NCBI GenBank assembly: GCA_947496235.1 | Contig: CANMCE010000003.1 | Coordinates: 1-64,000, forward strand | From: an uncultured Glaciecola sp. | Lineage (GTDB): Bacteria > Pseudomonadota > Gammaproteobacteria > Enterobacterales > Alteromonadaceae | Direction: 5' to 3' | Length of the DNA stretch: 64,000 bases | Shown here: one piece after another, positions 18,010-37,990 of the stretch | Numbering within the stretch: position 1 is the first letter of the stretch | How the letters are laid out: every line of letters begins with the position of its first letter | Made by a program: the position numbers and the translations under genes | Notes under the pieces: generated by a model | Told to the model about the DNA's origin: nothing | What the model saw: only the letters and a program-made list of their open reading frames with translations | The model's database searches: none

Positions 18010-18150
18010 ATGGAGCCGTAGTTCATTCTAAAAATGGGCGGAAAAAATGGAGCCGTAGTTCATTATCACCTCTACCCAACGTTTCTAACATTTCATCAGG
18101 TGAGCAGGTGATAATGAACTACGGCTCCATTTTTTTACAACTCCATTTTT
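18010..18150. repeat. Palindromic repeat element, copy 1 (24-nt core arms, 36-nt interior)
   Basis: The arm ATGGAGCCGTAGTTCATTATCACC (18047-18070) recurs as its exact reverse complement at 18107-18130. With the flanking A and T runs the perfect pairing is 29 bp (18042-18070 with 18107-18135). The interior is 36 nt (18071-18106). An extra 17-nt half-unit lies at 18010-18026 and partial outer repeats at about 18032-18041 and 18141-18150. The stem ends in T runs in both directions, so it could act as a bidirectional terminator between galE and the PseI-like gene. The same arms occur at 37.8 kb. Family unknown; REP/MITE-like by structure. Confidence 0.9.
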
Positions 18151-19199
18151 AGATGATCGAAGCTTAGAGCAGTGCCTTTCTTTAGTGCTTGTTTAACTGG
18201 TTTGCCTATCACTTGCTCTAGATACTTCGGTGCTAGCCCGTATCCAGGGCGGATACTTTTGACATTTAAGCTGCTAATAAGCTCACCTTGGGCGATATCT
18301 TTTACGACATACAATGAGCGTCTGAAAATCGCATTACCTTTTTCGCTTTCTTTACGTTCATAATTGACCTGACCTAGAGCTTGCCATGCAATCTTCGAGT
18401 CCCTACATAATTGAGCTAATTCTGGTTCCTCTAAAGAAAAAGAATCATCAGGCCCGCCACCTTGACGGTCGAGGGTGACATGTTTTTCAACTAGGCAAGC
18501 GCCTAAACTAACCGCGGATATTGCAGTGACATTCTCAATGGTATGATCCGAAAGCCCTACTAATACATCATATTTACGCGCCATATCTTGTAAAGTGCGT
18601 AAGTTATAGTCTTGAGCAGGCGCTGGATATCCACTAACACAATGCAACACAACTAAATCTTCACAGCCATTTGAGCGTGCTGTTTCGATAGCTTCTGCAA
18701 TCTCCTCTGCATCCGCCATTCCCGTGCTTATGATCATCGGCTTATGGGTTTGTGCTACGTATTTAATTAAAGGCAAATCAATGGCTTCAAAAGAAGCAAT
18801 TTTATAAGCAGGGGCATTTAAATCTTCGAGCAAATCAACCGCGGTATTATCAAATGGCGAACTGAAAATTGTAATATCTAATTCTTTTGCTTTATCGAAT
18901 AATGGTTTATGCCAGTCCCAAGGCATATGCGCTTGGGCATATAGGTCATAGAGCGTTTTTCCGTCCCAAAGGCCACCTTTTATTAGGAATTCGGGGCGGT
19001 CACTTTGGATCGTAATGGTATCTTGAGTATAAGTCTGCAATTTAATGGCATCAGCACCACTTCTTTTTGCCATTTCCAGAATTTTAAATGCCCGTTCTAT
19101 ATCGCCATTATGATTCGCTGATAATTCGGCAATAATATAGGGAGGCGAGTTTTCACCAATTACACGGCCATCAATTTTAATAGATTTCGCCACAGGCAC
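18135..19199 (-). CDS. PseI/NeuB family nonulosonic acid synthase
   Basis: A 354-residue enzyme of the sialic acid synthase family, which condenses phosphoenolpyruvate with a 6-carbon amino sugar to make a 9-carbon sialic-type acid. The barrel opens with PYIIAELSANHNGDIERA and includes KLQTYT, STGMAD, HCVSGYPAP and GLSDHT. A C-terminal SAF (antifreeze-like) domain covers about 285-350 (IRPGYGLAPKYLEQVIGK). GGGPDDSFSLEEPEL and FRRSLYVVKDI favour pseudaminic acid synthase PseI over NeuB. No other pse or neu genes are in the window, so the substrate route is not visible. Its last codons run into the palindromic element: the stop codon shares two bases with it. The gene ends 9 bp before mlaA's stop side and may be co-transcribed with it. 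Confidence 0.85.
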   Translation of the reverse strand: MPVAKSIKIDGRVIGENSPPYIIAELSANHNGDIERAFKILEMAKRSGADAIKLQTYTQDTITIQSDRPEFLIKGGLWDGKTLYDLYAQAHMPWDWHKPLFDKAKELDITIFSSPFDNTAVDLLEDLNAPAYKIASFEAIDLPLIKYVAQTHKPMIISTGMADAEEIAEAIETARSNGCEDLVVLHCVSGYPAPAQDYNLRTLQDMARKYDVLVGLSDHTIENVTAISAVSLGACLVEKHVTLDRQGGGPDDSFSLEEPELAQLCRDSKIAWQALGQVNYERKESEKGNAIFRRSLYVVKDIAQGELISSLNVKSIRPGYGLAPKYLEQVIGKPVKQALKKGTALSFDHLKMEL

Positions 19200-19207
19200 C
19201 TCGACGC

Positions 19208-20008
19208 TTATTCTAGACCTTCTAACATATCTTCAAAGTCAGAAAAATCCTCTTCTTCCTGCTGCAACTCTTCTTCTGAACGTTGCTGAATTGCACCATC
19301 ACTGACTTCATATGCCAAACGTTGGAAATAGGCGTCTCTAACAAATAAATATTGGTCTAAAGACCGGTTCAGGTTTTCTTCTTGCTCTAGCAATGACGCG
19401 CGAGTCTCTAATAAACTAATGACAGCCGCACCAATCACAATAGGGTCTTCTAAAACCGTTGACGGCCAGTAGTAACTATCTGCTACTCTACCGGTTAAGC
19501 TTCTAACATCACTAGGCCCCAACGCAGGTAACATTAAATAAGGGCCGGTTCCAATTCCCCAAACACCTAGTACTTGGCCAAAATCTTCCTCTTGTTTTTC
19601 AAGCCCCATGCTTTCTGCAACATCAAAAATGCCCAATACACCTATAGTAGAATTAATTAAAAAACGTCCGAGAGAAGATGCCGAATCTCCAGGTTTACCT
19701 TGTAATAAGTTATTAATGGTATTTGCTGGCTCCTCTAAGTTTTCAGAGGCATTTAAAAGACCTGTACGAACCGGTTGAGGCGCGATGGCAATATAACCTT
19801 GTGTAGCAGGTTTTAACAAATACTTGTCTAAAACTTCATAATTGAAGTCCCACATTGCTCGGTTAAAAGGCTCAAAAGGATCCGACACTTGAGAAGCTTC
19901 TGTTGGAGTTGTATTTCGTGCAGCTTCTTCCATCTGTTGTTCTTGCTGACTTGCACAAGCAGTAAGAAAAATTGCAGCACTAATGACAAGTATTTTACTA
20001 ATTTTCAC
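19208..20008 (-). CDS. mlaA: MlaA (VacJ) lipoprotein of phospholipid transport
   Basis: MlaA is the outer-membrane lipoprotein that removes mislocalised phospholipids from the outer leaflet and passes them to MlaC. The 266-residue protein has a signal peptide with lipobox LTAC (Cys18). The MlaA domain contains DPFEPFNRAMWDFNYEVLDKY near residue 44, then PVRTGLLNASENLEEPANTINNLLQG, FLINSTIGVLGIFDVA and GTGPYLMLPALGPS. All are characteristic. The C-terminal tail (about 235-266) is acidic and Glu-rich. It overlaps the ccmI stop by a base. Other mla genes are not in the window. Confidence 0.95.
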   Translation of the reverse strand: MKISKILVISAAIFLTACASQQEQQMEEAARNTTPTEASQVSDPFEPFNRAMWDFNYEVLDKYLLKPATQGYIAIAPQPVRTGLLNASENLEEPANTINNLLQGKPGDSASSLGRFLINSTIGVLGIFDVAESMGLEKQEEDFGQVLGVWGIGTGPYLMLPALGPSDVRSLTGRVADSYYWPSTVLEDPIVIGAAVISLLETRASLLEQEENLNRSLDQYLFVRDAYFQRLAYEVSDGAIQQRSEEELQQEEEDFSDFEDMLEGLE

Positions 20009-36447: not shown

Positions 36448-36480
36448 ATCGCATTAAGCATTAAACAAGAGGACTTATTA

Positions 36481-37773
36481 ATGGCTAAGATTCGCCAAGT
36501 TGTAGGAAGAGAAATTCTAGATTCACGTGGTAACCCAACAGTAGAAGCTGATGTTTACTTAGAATGTGGCGCTATGGGAAGAGCGGCAGCTCCCTCTGGT
36601 GCTTCAACCGGGTCACGCGAAGCATTAGAGTTAAGAGACGGAGATAAAAGTCGCTATCTTGGTAAAGGTGTTCTTAAAGCGGTTGCTGCAATTAATGATA
36701 AAATTGCCAGCGCAATTGAAGGTAAGGACGCAAACGAACAAGCTGAAATCGACCAAATCATGATCGATTTAGACGGCACAGAAAATAAAGAAGTATTAGG
36801 TGCAAACGCAATATTGGCAGTTTCATTAGCAGTCGCTAAAGCCCAAGCTATTAGCGCTGGAAAACCCCTGTATGCGCATATTGCTGACTTAAACGGCACT
36901 TCAGGTCAATATTCCATGCCTGTACCTATGATGAACATTATCAACGGTGGCGAACACGCGGATAATAATGTCGATATCCAAGAATTTATGGTACAGCCAG
37001 TAGGCGCGAAAAACTTCCATGAAGCCTTAAGAATGGGTGCAGAAATATTCCATTCGTTGAAAAAAGTATTATCTGCAAAAGGCTTAAATACAGCAGTAGG
37101 TGACGAAGGTGGTTTTGCACCTAACCTCAGTTCAAATGCAGAAGCACTTGCGGTAATCGTTGAAGCTGTTGAAAACGCCGGTTACAAAATGAATGATGAC
37201 GTAACCCTAGCGCTGGATTGTGCATCTTCTGAGTTCTATAAAGACGGTCAATACGTATTAAGCGGCGAAGACAAATCTTTCGACTCAAACGGCTTCAGTG
37301 ATTATCTTGCAGAACTAACCAATCAATATCCTATTGTTTCAATTGAAGATGGTTTAGACGAAAGCGATTGGGATGGTTGGGCATATCTGACTGAAAAACT
37401 AGGTAACAAAATCCAATTAGTGGGCGATGATTTATTCGTGACTAATACCAAGATTTTGAAGCGTGGTATCGATAACGGTGTAGGTAATTCGATTTTGATC
37501 AAATTCAACCAAATCGGATCTCTTACTGAAACCTTAAATGCTATTAAGATGGCGAAAGACGCTGGTTTTACTGCTGTTATTTCACATCGCAGTGGTGAAA
37601 CAGAAGATGCAACCATTGCTGATTTAGCCGTTGGAACAGCTGCAGGTCAAATCAAAACAGGCTCTCTATGTCGTTCTGACCGTGTAGCCAAGTACAATCA
37701 ATTATTAAGAATTGAAGGCGAGCTAGGCGAAAAAGCACCATACAAAGGCCGTTCTGAAATAAAAGGTCAGTAA
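36481..37773 (+). CDS. eno: Enolase
   Basis: Enolase interconverts 2-phosphoglycerate and phosphoenolpyruvate in glycolysis and is also a degradosome partner in gammaproteobacteria. The 430-residue sequence has the N-terminal [25 protein letters not shown], the metal ligands in ALDCASSEF and [14 protein letters not shown], the catalytic Lys in [13 protein letters not shown], and the substrate loop [18 protein letters not shown]. Length and motifs are standard. Its PEP product is also the cosubstrate of the PseI-like synthase, though nothing links them genetically. A palindromic repeat array begins 17 bp after its stop. Confidence 0.97.
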
Positions 37774-37790
37774 TAACAATAACGCAACAG

Positions 37791-37990
37791 TGGCGCCGTA
37801 GTTTAATAATGGAGCCGTAGTTCATAAATAATGGAGCCGTAGTTCATTATCACCCACCAACCAGATGTAAGTTATTTATACTAGGTTTAAGGTGATAATG
37901 AACTACGGCTCCATTATTTATGAACTACGGCTCCATTTTTTCTGCTCCATTATTTATGAACTACGGCTCCATTTTTCTGTGCCATTATTA
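37791..37990. repeat. Palindromic repeat element, copy 2 (nested 46-nt arms, 36-nt interior)
   Basis: Inner arms ATGGAGCCGTAGTTCATTATCACC (37831-37854) and its reverse complement (37891-37914) flank a 36-nt interior (37855-37890). Outside each arm a 17-nt half-unit follows in tandem at a 22-nt period (37809-37825; 37920-37936), so the perfect inverted repeat is 46 bp. A third right-hand half-unit lies at 37956-37972, a partial one at 37944-37950, and degenerate ends at 37791-37805 and 37980-37990. The arm is identical to that at 18.0 kb. With its T run (37936-37941) it may serve as eno's terminator. Confidence 0.92.

Follow-up and report, generated by a model that had tools for sequence, protein, structure and literature searches.

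The 64,000-nucleotide (nt) stretch of an uncultured Glaciecola sp. genome analysed here, hereafter the window (GenBank assembly GCA_947496235.1, contig CANMCE010000003.1, positions 1 to 64,000), contains two hairpin elements in which constant inverted arms enclose a variable loop; these elements, the family to which they belong and a linked transposase gene are our subject. The arm is the same 24-nt sequence, ATGGAGCCGTAGTTCATTATCACC, at all four positions. Element 1 comprises a left arm on the plus strand (18047-18070), a 36-nt interior (18071-18106) and a right arm on the minus strand (18107-18130), with an extra, exactly matching arm unit upstream on the plus strand (18010-18026). Element 2 has its inner left arm at 37831-37854 (plus strand), its 36-nt interior at 37855-37890 and its inner right arm at 37891-37914 (minus strand), all enclosed by an outer left unit (37809-37825, plus strand) and an outer right unit (37920-37936, minus strand) that were recognised by core match and pairing. 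A third arm unit to its right (37956-37972, minus strand) matches the core; the main hairpin holds no counterpart to it on the left side. The 17-nt core of the arm occurs in eight exact copies in the window, against a mean of 0.12 in shuffles. The identical 24-nt arms and the two 36-nt interiors reported in the initial annotation are therefore confirmed.

Pairing reaches beyond the arms as first drawn. Element 1 pairs over 30 nt at 100% (18042-18071 with 18106-18135), leaving 34 nt unpaired between, while element 2 pairs over 50 nt at 98% (37805-37854 with 37891-37940), leaving 36 nt. Because the paired arms are longer than 24 nt, the equality of the interiors at 36 nt depends on where the arm is cut.

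Both elements are members of a family dispersed through the source genome, which was searched as 4.42 Mb in 55 contigs. A 16-mer of the arm core, GGAGCCGTAGTTCATT, is present in 100 copies at no more than two mismatches, 71 of them exact, where the reversed-pattern control gives 3. The same 16-mer at no more than one mismatch is found in none of 12 other genomes of the genus, and the 17-mer core with one mismatch gave a single match each in 3 of a sample of 195 other family genomes. Across the fetched loci and the window, 19 inverted neighbour pairs lie less than 200 nt apart, and 13 of these follow a common plan: arm, inner stem of 5-7 base pairs (bp), loop, inner stem, arm. Several family copies carry two tandem units, some 20-24 nt apart, within their arms. 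Between the 16-mers, the interiors of the 13 doublets measure 42, 43, 43, 44, 46, 47, 47, 47, 48, 48, 48, 48 and 49 nt, and it is only in the six pairs outside this main class—L031 and L058 (53 nt each), L035 twice (9 and 10 nt), L048 (44 nt, nested) and L054 (145 nt)—that lengths vary widely. Within the main class, loop length spans a narrow range without being exact, and it does not hold for every pair; the fixed-length core first proposed survives as a range and not as a single size. The equal length of the two window interiors is unremarkable in itself, a chance match having been allowed for in the initial annotation: nine of the 36 pairings among nine doublets with a YTCRC inner stem, the window's subfamily, are of equal length, the 36/36 match being one of these nine, as are 10 of the 78 pairings among all 13.

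The two window interiors show no evident alignment with one another, and each occurs once in the genome at up to three mismatches, as the element itself. One way to account for such loops is capture, in which each event would enclose, within unchanging arms, a fragment of set length from the host or from foreign DNA, as part of a memory-like or packaging system, leaving interiors that are independent fragments. The narrow lengths fit this explanation, as does the failure of most interiors to align by eye, and the interiors in G096, a genome of another genus of the family discussed below, lack an inner stem and look arbitrary. Quantitative comparison argues otherwise. Interiors were compared in both orientations because the arms are symmetrical, and the mean pairwise global score of the 13 own interiors exceeded all 200 mononucleotide shuffles (P 0.003 in a repeat run with 300), all 300 dinucleotide shuffles and all 300 rotations, the last two also with L037 left out. 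The relationship between L037 and L043, which stand in opposite orientations, is clear, and the inner stem CTCAC is common to 6 of the 13. In G096, too, the interiors are more alike than randomised ones, a single one of the 300 shuffles, and likewise of the 300 rotations, reaching the observed global mean. Searched against phages and plasmids with 6 nt added on each side, the two window interiors, two of the 13 own, gave nothing better than E 0.9 (8 records) and otherwise no match. We read the own interiors as probable diverged relatives rather than independent fragments, and on thinner grounds those of G096 in the same way; capture, which the initial annotation had offered among its explanations, is consequently very improbable. 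The earlier statement that the interiors do not align holds for the eye and fails statistically: with more copies in hand, a weak, significant relatedness emerges.

Inside the inner stems, the loops gave no sign of a structure of their own. Trimmed by 6 nt per side, the 13 own loops were no better than shuffles in self-complementarity or folding (mean z -0.27 and 0.08, respectively), and the same trimming of eight G096 interiors likewise gave no signal of either kind (0.24 and -0.27).

The arms, by comparison, are alike within an element and differ between elements. In all 13 doublets the five innermost nt of the two arms pair, a count that rests partly on how doublets were chosen and becomes 13 of 14 when selection is by length alone (42-49 nt). 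They do so in six versions: CTCAC six times, ATCAC and ATTTC twice each, and ATCGC, CTTTC and ATTCC once each. Outside the core, the first 8 nt match at 94% within elements versus 73% between them, and the first 24 nt at 82% versus 48%, values reached in neither case by any of 20,000 permutations; over nt 25-40 the difference is marginal (42% versus 35%, P 0.05). For nine of the 13, the match across these 24 nt is 96-100%. Across 22 paired positions of the arms, 99% of cells are paired and 18 of the 22 are invariant; 16 cells carry changes on both sides (shuffles, 5.9), and covariation scores 0.160, a value above the 0.057 of shuffled data and reached by none of 500 shuffles. The earlier suggestion of arm-to-arm conversion sparing the loop, or of a structural product, fits these covarying arms.

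Better matching within than between elements would also be expected had each doublet arisen locally, by template switching that copied a single arm backwards across neighbouring DNA, the interior being the old flanking sequence; single arms do exist in the genome. Inner stems and interior homology common to different loci, together with the narrow length, point instead to copying of whole doublets, and no single arm with a neighbour equal to a doublet interior turned up, although no systematic search was made. We regard such a local origin as highly improbable.

The transposase to which the family is linked is encoded at C4:247493-248182 (230 amino acids), the only match to the Pfam model Y1_Tnp in the genome (51.4 bits, cut-off 23). 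The gene lies between two core copies per side, in inverted arrangement, and its stop codon overlaps the right-hand repeat. Its translation contains the motifs NHVH and YIELNP. At E 0.001 or better, matches to the protein occur in 96 of 147 family genomes, the source genome included, many of them weak; among solved structures, phmmer returned no match at E 0.01.

This linkage bears on the possibility that the elements are two-way transcription terminators or RNA elements kept for a host function, the transposase being incidental. Their surroundings are suggestive: runs of A and T border the arms of the window elements, and of the 12 doublets with predicted open reading frames (ORFs) on both sides, 11 lie downstream of at least one (8 codirectional, 3 convergent). 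The remaining doublet sits between divergent ORFs, however, and the repeats flank a transposase gene and are absent from 12 congeners. No Rfam family was found in the window at gathering scores. A terminator scan detected no site at element 1; near element 2 it picked up a single, unrelated one. This is weak evidence in that the scan sees only loops of 3-8 nt. We regard a host function of this kind as very improbable. All 13 doublets lie outside predicted ORFs, and four single-arm loci (L041, L044, L060 and L061) sit inside them.

Homologues of the transposase show how far the arrangement extends. Twenty were inspected, 19 from family genomes and one from Stenotrophomonas tumulicola. Inverted repeats surround the gene in 14, with GGGTC in the core of 12 of these, and GGGGTCAG appears in the flanking repeats of 6 of the 20; in the other six homologues flanking inverted repeats were not detected at the sensitivity used. 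The nearest homologue, in G096, is 53% identical, and its repeat, TAAAAAGGGGTCGTAGTTAATTA, is visibly related to the arm described here. Nine doublets in that genome enclose five interiors of 39 nt, two of 38 nt and one each of 41 and 27 nt, placing eight of nine within 38-41 nt; the 27-nt interior (L145) entered the local-alignment test and was left out of the folding and the shuffle and rotation tests. In a further genome, G094, the four arm matches at no more than one mismatch cluster around its transposase gene, none more than about 1.5 kb away, and therefore yield no length series.

The S. tumulicola locus, found with the present transposase as query, provides a second series. Lengths taken from 100 of 113 sites define 44 doublets with a mode of 32 nt (13 of 44); 22 of 44 fall at 32-34 nt, another 6 of 44 form a class of 6 nt, and the tail of the distribution reaches 69 nt. 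Sixteen distinct interiors were read, 14 stem-tested and 13 folding-tested. Seven of 14 interiors over 20 nt are perfect stems of 11-17 bp whose sequences differ between copies, and the 13 folding-tested interiors are strongly self-complementary and folded (mean z 4.35 and -5.53). In these palindromic loops the two halves clearly change together. Among doublets L162-L187, with 32-nt interiors, half are near-perfect palindromes that again differ between copies. The plan first noted from two elements, in which fixed arms enclose a core that varies in sequence and little in length, thus recurs in 13 doublets of the source genome and in two other genomes. Together these form a natural series with loop modes of 32, 39 and 48 nt, roughly comparable at best since the lengths were measured between cores of 18 nt in S. 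tumulicola and of 16 nt in G096 and in the source genome. Such a series, with constant arms and drifting loops, makes testable what a transposase of this type measures and how hairpin arms remain identical.

The anatomy and copy number of the elements, the repeats at the transposase gene, the paired and covarying arms, the narrow loop length, the weak loop homology and the recurrence of this pattern in the genomes of two transposase relatives argue for a single explanation. Very probably, the elements are non-autonomous hairpin doublets served in trans by a TIRYT/RAYT-type Y1/HUH transposase whose gene, elsewhere in the genome, has these repeats at its borders. The substrate of Y1 enzymes is single-stranded DNA present during replication. 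In that state the two arms would fold into one long hairpin, which the transposase would recognise by its arms and cut, after which the element could be pasted or copied to another site. Damage to the arm core would stop a copy's movement, such that surviving lineages would retain the core, while the loop could drift in sequence where only an approximate length is needed. Changes in the arm beside the core would be matched on the opposite arm if only paired changes survive; alternatively, one arm may template repair of the other within the hairpin, an idea familiar as quasi-palindrome correction.

The closest published counterparts are the TIRtrons, for example those of Stenotrophomonas maltophilia K279a, which have a Y1 gene bordered by inverted repeats and related repeats scattered through the genome as dimers or clusters (PMC3733652). 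Here, likewise, a Y1 transposase gene is bordered by inverted repeats and related repeats are dispersed, and the S. tumulicola locus shows doublets of terminal inverted repeats (TIRs). In the REPINs of Pseudomonas fluorescens SBW25, inverted conserved 16-mers surround a less conserved spacer of typical length (Bertels and Rainey 2011, PMC3116915). The present doublets resemble them in their two inverted 16-mers, variable spacer of typical length, hairpin, compensatory changes, linked Y1 transposase and intergenic position. Repetitive extragenic palindromic (REP) hairpins in single-stranded form are cut by TnpAREP (PMC8266576). Subclass 2.1 of the TnpAY1 proteins holds 20 of 26 TIRYTs (PMC6006769); NHVH, YIELNP and a length of 230 amino acids, against a median of 238, bring the present protein close to it. 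The elements are, in our best reading, TIR doublets of a TIRYT/RAYT system, non-autonomous and REPIN-like in their working. They do not reveal a new kind of system, as the initial annotation had envisaged: fixed arms with drifting loops are already described, and published accounts of REPINs and TIRtrons include compensatory changes and spacers that are diverse in sequence and conserved in length (PMC3116915, PMC8049555, PMC3733652). Unusual features are the tandem arm units, an off-consensus core, a genome-specific loop length and the enclosure of a gene cassette by these double ends.

That cassette, of 1.1 kb, lies at C13:20806-21947 (L051:1807-2948) between double inverted ends like those of the transposase gene, and encodes two proteins, a hexapeptide acetyltransferase and a NUDIX-type GDP-mannose mannosyl hydrolase. 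In one congener, G001, the two genes that neighbour it, rplS-like and AbgT-like, are present without the cassette; the rplS-like gene is present in 12 of 12 congeners, 11 of which were displayed. The cassette looks like cargo moved in trans.

A number of observations weigh against the assignment to a mobile TIRYT/RAYT system. Mobility would follow from the anatomy and from studied relatives; neither excision nor transposition was seen, and the 11 congeners viewed offered no empty site at base resolution, G001 being too diverged to place the cassette ends and none having been sought for the window elements. As for the protein, its tryptophan motif reads WG instead of the W[EQ] of subclass 2.1, and the account of that subclass reports no REP-like sequences beside its members, where the present gene is flanked by hairpin repeats (PMC6006769). 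For the C-terminal helix-turn-helix (HTH)-like domain of TIRYTs, no Pfam HTH model matches the tail up to E 5. The NCBIfam model for REP-associated transposases scores 63.8 bits, under its cut-off of 80. Searched with the protein itself, the source genome gave two matches, one of them weak (E between 4e-6 and 1e-3), and may therefore encode a further Y1-like protein. With regard to the repeats, the arm core, GGAGCCGTAG, departs from the published TIR consensus GGGGWSAS, reported for a majority of TIRs and not for all (PMC3733652), and the frequent tandem arm units are a further difference from TIRtrons. On neither strand does a single arm unit fold better than shuffled sequence (0 to -0.2 kcal/mol); lacking a stem-loop of its own, unlike REPs and the units of REPINs, it sets these elements apart from canonical REPs, as does the position of GTAG, which falls within the arm instead of marking a palindrome's foot. 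The doublets themselves are not uniform: four of 13, window element 1 among them, match at only 42-50% over the 24 nt outside the core, the nested L048 lacks an inner stem, and the inner stems of G096, at 0-2 bp, are effectively absent. Two measures of covariation did not rise above shuffles, namely pairs changed on both sides (4 versus 3.2) and pair types (7 versus 6.1), and local alignment of the G096 interiors was not significant (P 0.077 for the mean, 0.90 for the best).

A broader generalisation can be put forward tentatively, and we hold it as a possibility more doubtful than likely: transposases of the subclass 2.1 TIRYT kind might mobilise hairpin doublets whose loop is measured by a genome-specific length and not by sequence, with arms kept in register by hairpin-templated correction and with the same ends able to carry cassettes such as that at C13:20806-21947.

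Other arrangements of the arm unit accompany the doublets. A longer composite, some 200 nt in length and holding as many as four variant arm units, recurs at four contig ends (L031, L040, L052 and L058, near the ends of C2, C4, C13 and C25, respectively), as would be seen if the assembly had been interrupted by a multi-copy element of recent origin. Back-to-back arm units, in the arrangement opposite to that of the doublets, occur at L049:1500-1543, L055:1497-1541 and L056:1496-1541, with 12-14 nt between the 16-mers. Finally, two minimal palindromes with 9-10 nt between cores (L035:1545-1585 and L035:2014-2055) flank an ORF of 140 amino acids and are comparable to the 6-nt class of S. tumulicola.

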